64,000 bases of DNA from Planctomycetota bacterium (GTDB lineage: Bacteria; Planctomycetota; Planctomycetia; Pirellulales; PNKZ01): contig JAFEBQ010000032.1 in assembly GCA_018242585.1 (NCBI GenBank), positions 1-64,000 of the forward strand, read 5' to 3'. The position numbers were made by a program, and so were the translations under genes. Positions 17,065 through 22,959 of this stretch are shown piece after piece. The number at the start of each line of letters is the position of its first letter. Position 1 is the first letter of the stretch. The notes beneath the pieces are model-generated. The model saw nothing but the letters and a program-made list of their open reading frames with translations. It was not told the DNA's origin and did not search any database.

Positions 17065-17312
17065 CACGTCGTCGCAGGTCTCAAGCAGCCGTCCCCCAAA
17101 CGCTCCCTCTGCATGGCCACGTTATCGAAATGTCCCCCGACCAGCGCCGCCAAGAACTGGCCAGCATTCTCGCCGTCGGGGTTCTTCGCCTCCGGGCGCT
17201 CCGGCTGGCGGCGGGAAAATCGCTAACCGAAGACGCCACTATATCGTTAAATCCTGCCGCAACATGCCTTGAGGTTCCGGGCGAAACCGTGCTCAGTGTC
17301 CACACGGGTTAA
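17061..17312 (+). CDS. Small hypothetical protein
   Basis: An 83-residue protein whose start overlaps the stop of the DUF1937 gene by 4 bases (ATGA), which supports it as a real, coupled gene. It has a basic N-terminus (MTRRRRSQ), a helical middle part (DQRRQELASILAVGVLRLRAL) and no recognised domain. It may be a small DNA-binding protein, by analogy with the helical segments, but nothing shows this. Confidence 0.5.
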   Translation: MTRRRRSQAAVPQTLPLHGHVIEMSPDQRRQELASILAVGVLRLRALRLAAGKSLTEDATISLNPAATCLEVPGETVLSVHTG

Positions 17313-17345
17313 CGGTTTCGAGAGTCCTGAACACAAGGAGCAAAC

Positions 17346-17840
17346 ATGTTGAATGTAGCGAAAGAGGTCGCCGCACTAGAGCGGATGACCGTTGACCAAT
17401 TGCAGGCGAAGTACGCCGAAGTTTTCGGCGAACCCACGAATGGACGCCACAAAGAGTGGCTCATCAAACGGATCATTTGGCGGATGCAGGCCAACGCCGA
17501 GGGCGATCTCTCGGAACGAGCGCGCCGGCGGGCGATGGAACTGGCCAACGACTCCGACTTGCGTATGACGCCACCGCGCGAGCGGACACCCGCCGCTAAC
17601 GTCCCCGAACGAACCCTGACGCTGGCCTCAACCATCCGACCGAGTACCGAACTGCTACCCGGCACCGAGCTCAAGCGCGATTACAAGGGCCGGACCATTC
17701 GCGCCACCGTGCTGGACACCGGTTTTGAATGCGAAGGCCAGCGCTACAAGTCGCTGACCGCGGTTGCCAAGGCGATTACTGGCAAGCACTGGAATGGGTT
17801 TCATTTCTTTGGGCTGCGCCAGAATGGCGGTGGCCAATGA
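17346..17840 (+). CDS. DUF2924 protein, recombinase partner
   Basis: A 164-residue DUF2924 protein: EVAALERMTVDQLQAKYAEVFGEP, then RRAMELAND in the first half, then a central LLPGTELKRDYKGR and a final SLTAVAKAITGKHWNGFHFFGL. This family is almost always found immediately before a large serine recombinase, as here, where the genes overlap by 4 bases (ATGA). It may act as a recombination directionality or accessory factor; this has not been shown. An AAGGAG site precedes the ATG. Confidence 0.88.
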   Translation: MLNVAKEVAALERMTVDQLQAKYAEVFGEPTNGRHKEWLIKRIIWRMQANAEGDLSERARRRAMELANDSDLRMTPPRERTPAANVPERTLTLASTIRPSTELLPGTELKRDYKGRTIRATVLDTGFECEGQRYKSLTAVAKAITGKHWNGFHFFGLRQNGGGQ

Positions 17841-19390
17841 CCCGAAGATCAGCAAAACCCCTCGCCCCGCTGGTGATGCAGTGTGCGATCTACACCCGCA
17901 AAAGCACCGAAGAAGGTCTCGAGCAGGAATTCAACTCGCTGGACGCCCAGCGCGATGCCGGCGAAGCGTATATCAGCAGTCAACGGCACGAAGGCTGGGT
18001 CTGCCTCCCCAACCGTTACGACGACGGCGGATTCACCGGCGGCAACATGGAACGACCGGCGCTCCAGCGCCTGATGGCTGATATCGAAGCGGGCCGGGTC
18101 AATTGTGTCGTGGTTTACAAAGTCGATCGCCTGAGCCGGTCACTGCTGGATTTTGCCCGGATGATGGAGGTCTTCGAGAAACACCACGTCTCGTTCGTTT
18201 CCGTCACGCAGCAATTCAATACCGCCACGTCGATGGGACGGTTGATCTTGAACGTGCTGCTATCGTTTGCGCAGTTCGAGCGGGAAATGATCTCGGAACG
18301 GACCCGCGACAAAATCGCCGCCACCCGCCGCAAAGGCAAATGGTCCGGCGGCATGCCGATCCTGGGTTACAACGTCGTCGAGACCAAGCTGGTCGTCAAC
18401 GAGGCGGAAGCCCAGCAGGTCCGTGAAATCTTCGATTTGTACTTGCAGCGGCAGTCGCTCCTGGCGGTGGCGAAAGAACTCAACGCGCGGGACCGGCGGA
18501 CCAAGCATTGGATCACCCGCAAAGGGACGGCGCGCGGCGGGCGTCGGTTCGACAAGAACGCTATTTACGACCTGCTCACGAACGTGGCCTACGTCGGCAA
18601 GGTTCGCTATAAGGACGAGGTTCACCGAGGGGAGCACAGGGCGATCGTGGACGCCGAAACGTTTAATCAGGCCCAATCGCTTTTGCAACGGAATGGCCGC
18701 GCCGGCGGCAAGTCGACCCGCCACCCACCGGCCTTGCTGCGGGGTGTATTACGTTGTACCGCCTGTGGCTGCGGCATGAGCCACACCTATACCGCGAAGG
18801 GGAATCGGCAATACTGCTATTACGTCTGCCATCGCGCTCAGAAGCAGGGCTGGCAGGTTTGTCCGTCGCCGTCGATCCCCGCTGGTGAAATCGAACGGTT
18901 CGTCATCGACCAACTCAAGGGTATCAGTCACGATCCGCTCTTGATCGAAGAAACCCTGGTTCAGGCCCGCCGCCAAACGGAAGATCAAATCCAACGTCTC
19001 ACGGCGGAACGTCCGCGCCTAATGCGCGAACTCCGCGATGGCCATGTCGAGCTCACGCGGTTGGCGACCTCGGCTGAGCCAGGGGAGCCGGGTCTTCCAG
19101 ATGCCCACGATCGAATTAGGCACGTCGAACGGCGGCTGGCCGAGCTCGATGGCGAACTAGCGTCGATTGAAGCAAGCCCGCTCAACAAGACCGACGTGGC
19201 CGCGGTACTTGCCGACTTTGACGCCCTCTGGGGCTGCCTTGCCCCGCACGAGCAGGCGCGCGCGATCGAGCTGCTCGTCGAGCAGGTCGCTTACGATGGG
19301 AGGGTGGGGAGCATTTCGATCACCTTCCGGCCTGCCGGCCTGACGCAATTGGCGTTGGAATTGGCCCTGCGAAAGGAGCAGGTGGCATGA
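17837..19390 (+). CDS. Large serine recombinase (integrase)
   Basis: A 517-residue site-specific recombinase. The resolvase domain starts with YTRKSTEEG (19-27), with Ser23 as the nucleophile, and has YKVDRLSRSLLDF (94-106) and the E-helix region near 140-165 (LSFAQFEREMISERTRDKI). The recombinase domain follows (about 175-285). A zinc ribbon has CTAC and CHRAQKQGWQVC (307-342). The C-terminal coiled coil runs about 370-430. It is the likely integrase of the element, coupled to DUF2924 upstream and to a small HTH gene downstream (overlap ATGA). Such enzymes need short attachment cores, not long repeats. Confidence 0.93.
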   Translation: MTRRSAKPLAPLVMQCAIYTRKSTEEGLEQEFNSLDAQRDAGEAYISSQRHEGWVCLPNRYDDGGFTGGNMERPALQRLMADIEAGRVNCVVVYKVDRLSRSLLDFARMMEVFEKHHVSFVSVTQQFNTATSMGRLILNVLLSFAQFEREMISERTRDKIAATRRKGKWSGGMPILGYNVVETKLVVNEAEAQQVREIFDLYLQRQSLLAVAKELNARDRRTKHWITRKGTARGGRRFDKNAIYDLLTNVAYVGKVRYKDEVHRGEHRAIVDAETFNQAQSLLQRNGRAGGKSTRHPPALLRGVLRCTACGCGMSHTYTAKGNRQYCYYVCHRAQKQGWQVCPSPSIPAGEIERFVIDQLKGISHDPLLIEETLVQARRQTEDQIQRLTAERPRLMRELRDGHVELTRLATSAEPGEPGLPDAHDRIRHVERRLAELDGELASIEASPLNKTDVAAVLADFDALWGCLAPHEQARAIELLVEQVAYDGRVGSISITFRPAGLTQLALELALRKEQVA

Positions 19391-19791
19391 TCACCATCGA
19401 ACACAAGGTGCATTTCGGATTCGGTCGGCGTGCTCGAAGGGTGCTGCATGAGGGAGACGCTCCGCCCTCGCCCGCCCCAGGACGCGTGCCCCGCGTGGCG
19501 AGGCTAATGGCGTTGGCGATCCGGTTCGAATCGTTGCTTCGCGACGGCGCGGTGGCCGATCAGGCAGAACTAGCCAGGCTGGGGCACGTGACACGAGCAA
19601 GGCTGTCGCAGATTATGAACTTGCTCTGTCTTGCGCCGGATATTCAGGAAGCCCTGCTGTTTCTGCCCGAAGTGGTGCGTGGACGGGCCCCTGTCACAGA
19701 GCGGGATTTGCGGCCGATCGTGGCCACGCCGAGCTGGCAAAAGCAGCGTCAAAGTTGGTCTCGACTCAACGGCCCGGTCGCTTGCGGTTGA
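19387..19791 (+). CDS. Small HTH protein associated with the recombinase
   Basis: A 134-residue protein overlapping the recombinase stop by 4 bases. The middle (AIRFESLLRDGAVADQAELARLGHVTRARLSQIMNLLCLAP) is a helix-turn-helix resembling ParB/KorB-type DNA-binding. Proteins of this type are frequent neighbours of large serine recombinases with DUF2924. It probably binds DNA to control the recombinase or the element; no experimental role is known to me. Confidence 0.75.
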   Translation: MITIEHKVHFGFGRRARRVLHEGDAPPSPAPGRVPRVARLMALAIRFESLLRDGAVADQAELARLGHVTRARLSQIMNLLCLAPDIQEALLFLPEVVRGRAPVTERDLRPIVATPSWQKQRQSWSRLNGPVACG

Positions 19792-20052
19792 CAGCACCTG
19801 CGAGCAACTATTAAATGGCGGCGACTGCCACATCCTCGTTCTCGCTACCGTGAAAAAAGACGGGACGTTTTTGCAACTTCCGCTCGAGACTTCCCGGACC
19901 GTGGTGGGATGAGACGGAAGCCAGGTCAAAGTTCATCTGCGGTGCCGCGATCTAGCCATCGGCATTAGGGGAACCTTGAACGTCAACGTCGAATGACAGG
20001 CCGATGTCGGTGCAACCGGTTGCATCGTAAAAACAGAAGTCGTGGTACGAGT
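19792..20052. other. Gap between recombinase module and cargo operon
   Basis: 261 bases without a supported gene. The first part (19792-19916) stays open in the + frame but lacks a gene-like start. No repeat or terminator was recognised. The cargo promoter probably lies here. Confidence 0.4.
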
Positions 20053-20856
20053 ATGACGCAATCAGCCGCGGCCCGATTCCGAAAACCACCCGTAGTCGAA
20101 GTCTGGATTTCCGTAGAGTTCGACCCGAACGAAAATAAACGCGAGTGGCAATTGGAGTTGGTTCAACAGTACGTCGAACTCTATCAGGCAGAACTTCCAA
20201 AGCTCGAAGCGGTTCACGAGCGACAGATTCAGGTCGATGAAACGTCACCTCAAGCGCTCCCTAAGGTCATCGGACAACAGGTACGCTTGCAGTTCGTTCG
20301 CATGTCGAATGGACGGCGGACACGAGCGCTTCAGATTGGAGACGACCAGTTGTCGTTTCATGTTCTGAAGGAAGATCAGGCTTATCCGGGATACCGGATT
20401 GTGCGTGATGAGATGCAACGAAAGCTCGATGACTATGCTCGAATTTTCCAACCAACTCGAATCCGTAACGCGACGTTGCACTACCTCGACATAATCGACA
20501 TTCCGCGACCGGAAAGTGGCGAGATCGACCTCCCCGACTATTTCGTAGCGTCTATCGACCTTCCGGAGGAACCTTTTGGGCAGATTGGTGGCTTCGCCCA
20601 TCGATTTCAGATGGCGTGCCCAGTGGACCCTGGGCCCTTGCTGCTGCAATTACAGGCCATCCCGTCCCCCCCGGAAAGCAATGTCTTCCGGTTTCGCATG
20701 GACTGGCACAAACAGTCTGCCGCCGTGAACACGCTGGATTTATCGCAAGTGTGGTCGCGGATGGATGTTGCGCACGACTACATGAGGCGATGTTTCCTCG
20801 CGTCGTTTACACAACGTACCCTTGAATTATTCGATCCTGTCTCGGACACTGAATAA
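20053..20856 (+). CDS. TIGR04255-like protein of unknown function
   Basis: A 267-residue protein. The start RFRKPPVVEVWISVEFDP and the later KEDQAYPGYRIVRDEM, RNATLHYLDIID and NVFRFRMDWHK segments fit the sporadically distributed TIGR04255 family, whose function is unknown. No membrane segment, nuclease or helix-turn-helix motif is visible. The ATG at 20053 starts next to the conserved region; an in-frame ATG at 19993 adds 20 basic residues. The next gene begins right after its stop codon, so the two are probably coupled. GC content is lower than in neighbouring genes, consistent with acquisition. Confidence 0.7.
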   Translation: MTQSAAARFRKPPVVEVWISVEFDPNENKREWQLELVQQYVELYQAELPKLEAVHERQIQVDETSPQALPKVIGQQVRLQFVRMSNGRRTRALQIGDDQLSFHVLKEDQAYPGYRIVRDEMQRKLDDYARIFQPTRIRNATLHYLDIIDIPRPESGEIDLPDYFVASIDLPEEPFGQIGGFAHRFQMACPVDPGPLLLQLQAIPSPPESNVFRFRMDWHKQSAAVNTLDLSQVWSRMDVAHDYMRRCFLASFTQRTLELFDPVSDTE

Positions 20857-21567
20857 ATGCCGTTCGTTGCGCTAAATCAAGATTCGGGCTGGGCTACGCC
20901 TGCCTACGTGTCGTCCATCGACGGAACGATGGACGTTTCGTTCCGCCAGTATTTTGAATCCGATATCGTTCGTTCCATCTTGAACGACCTGCGGATTGCG
21001 GGTGTCACGTATCCATTACGGAGACCATGTCCCGCGAGCTATATTCCGGGAGTCGGCGAGTTTCTCGTAGAAGGATTTAGCCCGGTATTTGTTGGTCGCG
21101 GTGCAACGATTGAGGAAGCCCGAAGCGATTGGCTGCTTGCTGTTCATGCGGGGTTTCAAGAATTGATTTCTAAGCGACCGTTCGAGATGGCACCGAGTGA
21201 TGTGCGTCGGTGGCATGTGCTTACTTCCCAGATCGACGTAACGGTGTATCGAAACCAGACACCGATCCTAGTACGTCAGTTTGGAAAGGTCACTCAGGCC
21301 CGGCCGTATCCACAACAGATTCAATGGGAAAATGGCGAACGCGAGGCCATTAGTGTGGAGCAAGTCGAGTCCCCTGATTTCATTACATTCAAGCCGGGCC
21401 AGCCGATCGAGGCCGTCGTTGCTCGCGACCCGCTCAATTTTCACCTCTTGCGGATCGTGCATATCGAGCGCCGCTCAACGCCATCACGGCTTTTACCCAC
21501 CGAAGAAGCAGAGTTGCTTGAGTCGATTGGCTCATCGCAACATTTACCTCCTGCTGGCTGGGAATAG
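20857..21567 (+). CDS. Hypothetical protein, middle gene of cargo operon
   Basis: A 236-residue protein with no recognised domain. It abuts the TIGR04255-like gene (stop then ATG without spacing). Predicted beta-rich segments include ITFKPGQPIEAVVARD and DFITFK near residues 180-200, and a conserved-looking EEARSDWLLAVHAGFQEL helix near 90-105. A helical YFESDIVRSILNDLRIAG segment is near 30-47. There is no signal peptide. The function is unknown; its close packing between two others suggests a shared complex or pathway. Confidence 0.65.
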   Translation: MPFVALNQDSGWATPAYVSSIDGTMDVSFRQYFESDIVRSILNDLRIAGVTYPLRRPCPASYIPGVGEFLVEGFSPVFVGRGATIEEARSDWLLAVHAGFQELISKRPFEMAPSDVRRWHVLTSQIDVTVYRNQTPILVRQFGKVTQARPYPQQIQWENGEREAISVEQVESPDFITFKPGQPIEAVVARDPLNFHLLRIVHIERRSTPSRLLPTEEAELLESIGSSQHLPPAGWE

Positions 21568-21591
21568 TCCAATCGAGGTCGCGGAGTCGGC

Positions 21592-22611
21592 ATGGAAGTC
21601 TTCTTCTTGGATGTAGGCCAAGGAACGTGCCAAATTATTCTCCTGGGGGGCCGGCGCGCGATCGTTCTCGACTGCGGGGTTCCCAATGATCGGCTGGTGC
21701 TTCAATTTCTTCGGCGATTGGGCATAGAATACCTTGACCGCCTCATCATCTCGCATAGTCACAGCGACCACATTGGGGGCGCTGTTTCGGTCCTTGGCGA
21801 GTATCAGGATCGGATCGAAAAAATCTGTTTCGTTCAGGACGACCAATTCCTAGCCAGTTCATTCTGGCGTCGAATCTCAGAATTGGTGCGCGCGGGGACG
21901 CTTACAAAACAGCACTTGATTCGCCTCGAAGCAACGACCGAGCCCCAACTGATCTGGTCAGATGAGCCGCGTTCCGCACGTTTACGGACATATTCCCCTA
22001 CGGCCGCTGAAAATTTGTTAGCACAGGATGCCGGCCAGCAGAATCCGACAAGCGCGGTGCTTTTCTTCGATGTTCGCGATCAGCGTATCATTTTTGCTGC
22101 CGACTCCGAAGTTAGCCAATGGCAAGAGATTCGCGCACAAAGTGGAAGGCGAATGGCTTGCCGCGTACTTGCCGTTCCACATCACGCGGGGCGCGCGCAT
22201 AGTTCGCCACAAGACTTAGAGTGGTTGTTCGGCGAAGCGTTGGCGGCAGAAGTTGCCGTTATTTCCGTCGGCACGAGTAACACGCATGGGCACCCGAGGC
22301 AGGATGTGATCAAAGCGCTGACGGCGCGAGGCGCAAAAATAATGTGTACTCAGATCACGCGCCGATGCAATAACAGTCTCGAAACATTGCGTCCGGCAGT
22401 ATTGCGACCGGTTCTGCATCAGGGCCGGTCATCCTCGGTTCGTGATGTCACACGTGCCGGCAACAGTCGCAACGTTGCGTGCGCCGGTACAGTACATGTA
22501 TTGGTCTCGCCCACGGGGATGGAAATTCAACAGCTTGCTGCACATCAGCAGGCCGTAGACAAGTTGGCTGCCTCATCTGCCCCAATTTGTCCTCTATGTC
22601 GCTTGAGTTGA
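21592..22611 (+). CDS. ComEC-like metallo-beta-lactamase-fold hydrolase
   Basis: A 339-residue soluble metallo-beta-lactamase-fold enzyme. It opens MEVFFLDVGQGTC with the DVGQGT signature of ComEC/Rec2 C-terminal domains (7-12). The metal motif HSHSDH is at 55-60, NPTSAVL at 151-157, Asp171 in FAADSE and HH at 197-198. No ComEC transmembrane part is present, so DNA uptake is not its job. The last 120 residues include a CPLC near the end. Related stand-alone enzymes occur in mobile-element cargo and may act on nucleic acids or nucleotides. It follows the middle gene after 24 bases. Confidence 0.8.
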   Translation: MEVFFLDVGQGTCQIILLGGRRAIVLDCGVPNDRLVLQFLRRLGIEYLDRLIISHSHSDHIGGAVSVLGEYQDRIEKICFVQDDQFLASSFWRRISELVRAGTLTKQHLIRLEATTEPQLIWSDEPRSARLRTYSPTAAENLLAQDAGQQNPTSAVLFFDVRDQRIIFAADSEVSQWQEIRAQSGRRMACRVLAVPHHAGRAHSSPQDLEWLFGEALAAEVAVISVGTSNTHGHPRQDVIKALTARGAKIMCTQITRRCNNSLETLRPAVLRPVLHQGRSSSVRDVTRAGNSRNVACAGTVHVLVSPTGMEIQQLAAHQQAVDKLAASSAPICPLCRLS

Positions 22612-22652
22612 GGCAACTTTTCAATCGGTGACAGCGAGACTCCGAACCCAAC

Positions 22653-22667
22653 CGGGTTGTTAACCCG
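22653..22667 (+). repeat. Short inverted repeat after the cargo operon
   Basis: CGGGTT, loop GTT, AACCCG. It lies 41 bases after the stop of the metallo-beta-lactamase-fold gene. No T-run follows, so it may be a weak terminator or part of an attachment region; neither is shown. Confidence 0.4.
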
Positions 22668-22811
22668 ATGGGGTCTGTTAAACGGAGAGCGCGAGAGTCC
22701 AGGCGCGGGGGTGGCCAAAAACGATGGCCGGGGGAGTTCGTGGCGAGCCGGTGGAGAACTCTCGCCGCGTGGCCCCACGTTGCAAGTCGTTGCCTCGTGG
22801 GCGGAAAACGC

Positions 22812-22843
22812 AAAACGCCGAGGGCTCTCGCTCTCAGCGTTTT
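22812..22843 (-). terminator. Intrinsic terminator downstream of tRNA-Asn
   Basis: Reading leftward, AAAACGCTGAGAG pairs with CCCTCGGCGTTTT (13 base pairs with two G-T pairs) around a short loop, ending in TTTT. It starts 44 bases after the 3' end of the tRNA gene on the same strand. Confidence 0.7.
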
Positions 22844-22886
22844 CTGTAAACCAGCGGGTCAGCGGCAATTTCGCAAACCGGAAAAG

Positions 22887-22959
22887 CTCCCCGACTAGGA
22901 CTCGAACCTAGGACCTAGCGGTTAACAGCCGCGCGCTCTACCAACTGAGCTATCGGGGA
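22887..22959 (-). tRNA. tRNA-Asn (GTT)
   Basis: On the minus strand the acceptor TCCCCGA (5') pairs with TCGGGGA, with discriminator G. The D-arm contains TAGCTCAGTTGGTAGAGC, the anticodon loop is CTGTTAA with anticodon GTT (Asn), and the T-arm contains GGTTCGAGTCC. No CCA is encoded. The total is 73 bases. It lies just right of the phage-like element and may mark its insertion region. Confidence 0.95.

Follow-up and report, generated by a model that had tools for sequence, protein, structure and literature searches.

The locus described here raises the question of what three adjoining genes, placed between a recombinase module and a tRNA gene, do in a planctomycete. It lies in a 64,000-nucleotide stretch of DNA (the window) from a Planctomycetota genome of 5.57 Mb. 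A sequence-only reading had taken the three genes to be anti-phage or element-maintenance cargo at the end of a mobile element, with the product of the third gene as a possible effector and the other two as sensor or regulator. We examined the genes, their relatives and the element that carries them.

Results

The three genes form a compact operon

All three open reading frames were found where they had been placed, on the forward strand (Table 1). The TAA stop codon of the first gene (20854-20856) is followed directly by the ATG of the second at 20857, and exactly 24 bases separate the stop codon of the second from the ATG of the third, as had been described. The lower GC content that had been claimed also held, since the operon has 54.2%, its upstream flank 59.7% and its downstream flank 63.9%, and the count of 29 of 60 bases for 20341-20400 was exact. 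Only 2 of 615 segments of the same length in the 64 kb have a GC content as low, and GC3 is 0.55-0.59 in the three genes compared with 0.68-0.80 in neighbouring genes. The neighbours were likewise those named before, a serine recombinase gene on one side and a tRNA-Asn gene on the other. A compact, low-GC operon of three genes is therefore confirmed.

Table 1. Features of the operon and of its host element (window coordinates)
Feature	Position	Strand	Basis
DUF2924 protein of the recombinase module	17346..17840	+	PF11149, 1.3e-42
Large serine recombinase of the element	17831..19390	+	Resolvase/Recombinase/Zn_ribbon_recom; phrog_95 integrase, 3e-125
134-aa recombinase-associated protein, last conserved gene before the slot	19387..19791	+	Homologues after the recombinase in relatives
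Cargo slot, filled by the operon	about 19750..22641	no strand	DNA homology breaks in L212, L213
Gene 1, TIGR04255 family protein, 267 aa	20053..20856	+	TIGR04255 profile match
Gene 2, middle protein, 236 aa	20857..21567	+	OB-fold-like C-terminal domain (predicted); no family match
Gene 3, soluble ComEC-like metallo-beta-lactamase (MBL) protein, 339 aa	21592..22611	+	PF00753
Conserved right end of the element	22642..22885	no strand	blastn and alignment
tRNA-Asn(gtt), 3' end abutting the element	22886..22959	-	ARAGORN

The MBL protein resembles the nuclease domain of ComEC

Gene 3 had been called ComEC-like, and this is borne out by matches to PF00753 (43.8 bits) and TIGR00361 (73.2 bits) and by an HxHxDH motif that includes H55 and H57. 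The TIGR00361 match is limited to the C-terminal nuclease region and lies below the cut-off of 190 bits, so this 339-residue protein is not a ComEC/Rec2 competence protein, which would exceed that score and carry the channel domain. It does have the ComEC-type nuclease motif (HxDxDH-type) together with the other metal ligands. In 11 members H55, D59, H60, D171, H197, H198 and H234 are invariant, and position 57 is either H or D. Among solved structures the ComEC nuclease domain (9ic4, 1e-16) comes closest. Its two-metal DNase activity with Mn2+ depends on H-x-D-x-D-H and D700, and H725 has been examined there as a residue that contacts DNA (PMC12455585). Since the ligands of the MBL protein (H55, D/H57, D59, H60, D171, H197/H198) match the ComEC DNase residues, they count in favour of a nuclease.

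The 11 members also have a nearly invariant C-terminal tail (C252-x6-C259...C297-x-G...H318...C336), and this C-C-C-H-C pattern suggests a structural metal site, predicted to be for zinc. In a maximum-likelihood tree the planctomycete MBLs, together with MBLs from methyltransferase-containing cassettes (see below), are set apart from 67 ComEC-type sequences (99/95). The planctomycete MBLs form a clade (100/99), and the placement of a Pseudanabaena sequence is unsure. Orders and classes are intermixed in the tree, for example a Gemmatales with a Pirellulales sequence (100/95), as would be expected of horizontal spread. Scores to the MBLs of known defence systems are weak: 34.5 bits to Avs1a, 29.4 to 6A-MBL, 41.6 to LmuA and 36.7 to RTasMBL.

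The partner proteins

The middle protein gave no family match in Pfam, NCBIfam or PADLOC. In its AF2 model (pLDDT 80) the N-terminal part is beta-beta-beta-alpha and the C-terminal domain (residues 135-208) is OB-fold-like; residues 137-208 match OB-fold proteins (EF-P/IF5A, cold-shock and SSB proteins) with Z scores of 6-8. These matches are middling (best Z 8.0, best Foldseek E 7e-3), and we regard an OB fold in the C-terminal half as predicted. Two other likenesses of the middle protein were set aside: that of its N-terminus to HicB was seen by eye and Pfam gave nothing, and that of its OB region to the tail of the receiver-like proteins was plausible by eye but not significant in profile-profile comparison (P 0.05-0.07).

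In ComEC the OB fold is a DNA-binding domain; tethered, it speeds up the nuclease about seven-fold, but added free it does not (PMC12455585). Since the C-terminus of the middle protein is a predicted OB fold, the middle and MBL proteins together resemble the OB and nuclease domains of ComEC placed on separate soluble chains. The operon thus has in common with ComEC/Rec2 the MBL sequence, the metal ligands and, in the predicted pair, an OB-like domain alongside. It differs in the lack of a membrane channel, in the separate chains, in the extra Cys/His tail and separate clade of its MBL, and in its non-competence setting. Furthermore, since the OB domain of ComEC gave the nuclease no stimulation when supplied in trans, the analogy with a split ComEC needs a stable complex between the middle and MBL proteins.

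Gene 1 had been assigned to TIGR04255, and it is a clear member, with 92.8 bits against a cut-off of 30 and a match that spans positions 1-251 of 252 (NCBIfam). Its AF2 model (pLDDT 85, pTM 0.82) shows a pseudo-twofold alpha/beta fold. Guanidino kinases matched this model with a Z of 9.5 at 3.9 A, and TBP and AdoMetDC matched also; these matches are middling (Z 7-9.5 at ~4 A), and relationship to any of the three was rejected. Many TIGR04255 genes (L005-L094) closely precede one of several small partner families, among them a large one (~20) and another that includes XRE-like proteins; the pattern would suit a general module whose partners can be exchanged. The genome that carries the operon has a further TIGR04255 gene (G000:C19:97988-98707; L026/L081), which has neither a middle nor an MBL partner.

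The three genes recur together

The same three genes in the same order were found in seven other Planctomycetota loci, giving eight complete loci with the window (L104, L109-L113 and L115). Since these seven loci are divergent, the operon is more than a chance arrangement. In a distant planctomycete (G142, the source of L115) all three genes are present in unchanged order, with pairwise identities to the window of 27% for gene 1, 32% for gene 2 and 35% for gene 3. Among 397 genomes of the class of G142 there were four further MBLs, three in complete operons and one cut by the end of its contig. Scanning 84,980 species genomes yielded ten loci of the family. Nine were labelled planctomycete and one only "bacterium", and after them came a sharp fall to ordinary ComEC.

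The middle gene lies directly upstream of the MBL gene in all 11 family loci that have upstream DNA, and TIGR04255 lies upstream of the pair in 8 of the 11. The other three (L114, L116 and L117) have the pair without a recognisable TIGR04255 gene. The constant core is therefore the middle gene with the MBL gene. The three families recur together, and in different mobile elements (see below), as had been predicted, and no housekeeping partner of the MBL was found. TIGR04255 itself is not dedicated to the operon, since only two of the ~80 TIGR04255 genes among 382 Planctomycetota genomes (spread over 62 of them) carry the middle/MBL pair, namely those of the window and G142. This makes TIGR04255 unusable as a marker of co-occurrence, and most other members of the family have different neighbours.

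A scan of genome contigs with a single middle-protein sequence gave nothing, as did scans of viral contigs with two-sequence alignments; larger alignments found loci in the former and matches in the latter. A tblastn search of plasmids with genes 1 and 2 gave no match. In L117 (5006-6937) a middle-type domain and an FG-GAP-like region share one open reading frame of 643 residues, possibly a fusion or a wrong start.

The operon occupies a variable slot in a serine recombinase element

To the left of the operon the DNA is prophage-like, with genes for a helicase, a metallophosphatase, a DUF2924 protein and a serine integrase. The module of DUF2924, recombinase and 134-aa protein has relatives in L212, of the same genome (77% DNA identity over 17143-19748), and in L213 of G1118 (70%). 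Homologues of the 134-aa protein follow the recombinase in L212, L215, L221 and L229, as judged by eye and by DNA alignment. In L212 and L213 the homology ends near the end of the 134-aa gene (19748 and 19649) and restarts at 22641 and 22642, so that the operon fills a slot between two conserved parts. The first ~57 bp of the right end are common to ten elements (the window, L212, L213, L216, L221, L222, L224, L226, L228 and L229). The slot of L212 holds genes for a 367-aa protein and a nucleotidyltransferase-like protein (named by eye), and that of L213 holds 5.3 kb with PADLOC PDC-M30/M41 proteins and a type II cytosine methyltransferase. The recombinase of this second element in the same genome (L210/L212, G000:C14:14634-16181) is 74% identical to that of the window.

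Twenty further relatives of the recombinase were found, seven of them with the same right end. Three of these slots are empty, at ~400 bp (L222, L224 and L226), and the others hold 1.7 to 9 kb of other genes, low-GC ones among them. In L221 (3066-9347, minus strand), from a planctomycete, the slot encodes a full-length Avs3 homologue of 2093 residues, scoring 2075 bits to SeAvs3 (8dgc), an experimentally established anti-phage protein. The position at an element end had been thought typical of cargo, and this was upheld, since in homologous elements the same slot is either empty or differently filled, in one case with the Avs3 homologue. We conclude that this is a defence-type cargo slot beside the likely integration site, with the operon as one occupant. 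As to the other slots, that of L216 encodes a helicase-like protein of 1641 residues, and the uncharacterised cargo of L216, L228 and L229 includes a 511-aa DUF4365-like protein and a multi-gene set with AlbA-2/Schlafen-like and DnaQ-like proteins (both named by eye).

Six of the seven elements adjoin tRNA-Asn or tRNA-Arg, oriented as in the window. Among the relatives the arrangement is seen with tRNA-Asn in L214, L216, L228 and L229 and with tRNA-Arg in L222, L224 and L226. The tRNA-Asn(gtt) gene is thus the likely integration site of the element. A second copy of its 3' end was found neither in the window nor in the genome, and for this reason the far end of the element could not be placed.

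Other settings of the operon

In G503 the operon is part of a 19-kb prophage that also encodes a tyrosine integrase, a capsid protein and a minor tail protein, and whose two ends carry identical 68-bp copies of a tRNA-Asp 3' end (C221:3863-3930 and 22818-22885). The operon of G429 is close to a tRNA-Met gene with an adjoining tyrosine integrase, and no repeat of this tRNA was found in the stretch searched. The viral contig L202 carries a truncated MBL gene followed by small terminase, large terminase and portal genes. The chance that two or more of 11 loci would lie within 6 kb of a tyrosine integrase is 0.04, a modest result, and the evidence from the slot and the att repeats weighs more. No clear element or defence island was present in the examined flanks of most chromosomal copies (L104, L109, L110, L111 and L114-L117); around them were only scattered kinase, Fic-type or phage genes.

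Related MBL proteins in methyltransferase cassettes

The same Cys/His tail is invariant in MBLs of Burkholderia, Hymenobacter and Streptomyces that are encoded in cassettes with a methyltransferase, a kinase and a receiver-like protein (L095 and L096 on plasmids, L123, L125, L135 in Streptomyces); such cassettes were also seen in L196-L200 and L203. The tail is invariant too in the MBL of a methylase-MBL pair of Pseudanabaena, and it recurs on viral contigs. Cassette and operon have in common the tail (C-C-C-G-H-C), an MBL gene directly after a small regulator-like gene, and carriage by phages or plasmids. They differ in that an HATPase kinase, a receiver-like protein and a DNA methylase replace TIGR04255 and the middle protein. 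The cassette is not recognised as a system by PADLOC; it is possible that it is a two-component-controlled defence.

On the viral contig L199 (877-6035; compare L200, also viral) the genes for an N6-methyltransferase, HATPase kinase, receiver-like protein and MBL stand in series, next to the convergent portal and terminase genes of a P2-like phage, at a site where P2 phages carry defence genes. The viral contig L203 (2176-8736) has the same cassette with a different methylase: a kinase (apparently split into two open reading frames), a receiver-like protein, the MBL and a cytosine-5 DNA methyltransferase beside a phage integrase. On another viral contig (L198) a receiver-like protein and an MBL accompany a phage replication initiation protein (phrog_453), and the contig is filamentous-phage-like in look. 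A survey of 349 Burkholderiales genomes found none of this sister MBL clade, which is uninformative as the survey had no positive control.

Discussion

We propose, with a probability of roughly 0.6, that this mobile operon, carried by prophages, serves in defence against phages (or mobile elements) and that an MBL DNase would be its effector, under the control of the OB-like and TIGR04255 proteins. This proposal is made because a recurring mobile cassette sits in a swappable slot, and the same slot of a relative holds an Avs3 homologue. MBL nucleases are established DNA-cutting effectors in Hachiman and AVAST, and an MBL is also paired with a protease in Lamassu and DRT, with Canu as a related caspase-linked system (PMC12799240). 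An MBL effector in the operon would be consistent with these published DNases, which we count for a role in defence, as we do the sister MBLs with the same tail in phage and plasmid cassettes. Several points count against the proposal: the OB-fold match is middling, TIGR04255, a family with no known function, is missing or unrecognisable in 3 of 11 loci, most chromosomal copies have no clear element or defence island in the flanks examined, and the OB domain of ComEC failed to stimulate its nuclease in trans.

DNase activity, complex formation, a sensing role and phage defence are what we infer for this operon. The MBL effector, as a soluble relative of the ComEC nuclease domain, would cut DNA with two metal ions. 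The OB fold of the middle protein may hold or present nucleic acid to the nuclease, as the OB domain of ComEC does, and within a complex it would thus either feed or mask the nuclease. The N-terminal part of the middle protein together with TIGR04255 may detect infection and hold the nuclease inactive until it is called for; in L114, L116 and L117 the sensing would fall to whatever replaces TIGR04255. In the known defence systems a partner protease un-gates the MBL nuclease (PMC12799240). No protease family was found in the operon or in the scanned neighbouring genes, which sets it apart from the protease-gated HamM, Avs1a and CanC, and since no protease is encoded, release would come from binding or a conformational change.

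The operon therefore shares with AVAST type 1, Hachiman (HamM), Lamassu, DRT and Canu a soluble ComEC-type MBL beside sensor or regulator genes (PMC12799240), whereas it lacks a trypsin or caspase gene and has an OB protein and TIGR04255 as partners. Its MBL is not Avs1a, since the score to NF041809 is far below the >420 bits required. The relation to 6A-MBL (NF058524) is likewise of a low level, the score being under the cut-off of 220, and the operon lacks a methyltransferase. The effector is of a known kind and the partners are new.

Since the operon is compact and mobile, it could instead be a toxin-antitoxin or addiction module, with a toxic MBL neutralised by the middle protein, TIGR04255 or both, which would keep the element in place. 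The HicB-like look of the middle N-terminus and the short partners, XRE-like proteins among them, that follow some other TIGR04255 genes would suit such a module. Against this, there is no HicB match in Pfam, and defence is the better fit for three subunits in a slot that in relatives houses an Avs3 homologue or an R-M-type methylase, so we consider addiction unlikely; addiction and abortive defence are not mutually exclusive. As the operon is phage-borne, its MBL might also hydrolyse a cyclic-nucleotide-like signal and shield the prophage from host CBASS or Pycsar, like Apyc1. There are weak matches to Apyc1 (Pfam, 12.6 bits; PDB 7u2r, 1.5e-4), but the ComEC match is far stronger (1e-16), there are copies in chromosomal settings, the MBL always comes with an OB-like partner, and a relative's slot houses an Avs3 homologue, all of which makes counter-defence improbable.

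The combination of an OB fold with a nuclease, and the nearness of recombinase or packaging genes in several elements, would also be compatible with a part in the element's own replication, integration or packaging. We think this very improbable, because the operon is missing from sister elements that share the recombinase, some of which have empty slots, has a GC content much below that of the element core, and occurs in chromosomal settings too. Least credible is that the MBL acts on RNA or a cell-wall or teichoic-type substrate, in a system with some other role. The breadth of the MBL superfamily and the match to the phosphorylcholine esterases Pce/CbpE (1e-7) speak for it, but the best match is ComEC, none of the ComEC metal ligands has been lost and the partner resembles an OB protein.

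Beyond the anti-phage reading, we tentatively put forward a wider and more doubtful idea, that the ComEC machinery has been split and re-used for immunity. An OB adaptor and a soluble, tailed nuclease would then make up an effector pair that is interchangeable. Its control would lie with TIGR04255 in Planctomycetota and with a methyltransferase, a histidine-kinase-like ATPase and a receiver in the sister lineage of phages and plasmids. If true, MBL-nuclease defence would include a class that works without a protease and joins one common effector to exchangeable sensors.

The operon adds an uncatalogued candidate defence system in a phylum whose immunity is little studied, and the family of serine recombinase elements with its defence-type cargo slot can be mined for further systems. 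The findings point to protease-free control of ComEC-type nucleases, and they would give some members of the widespread orphan family TIGR04255 a first testable function.
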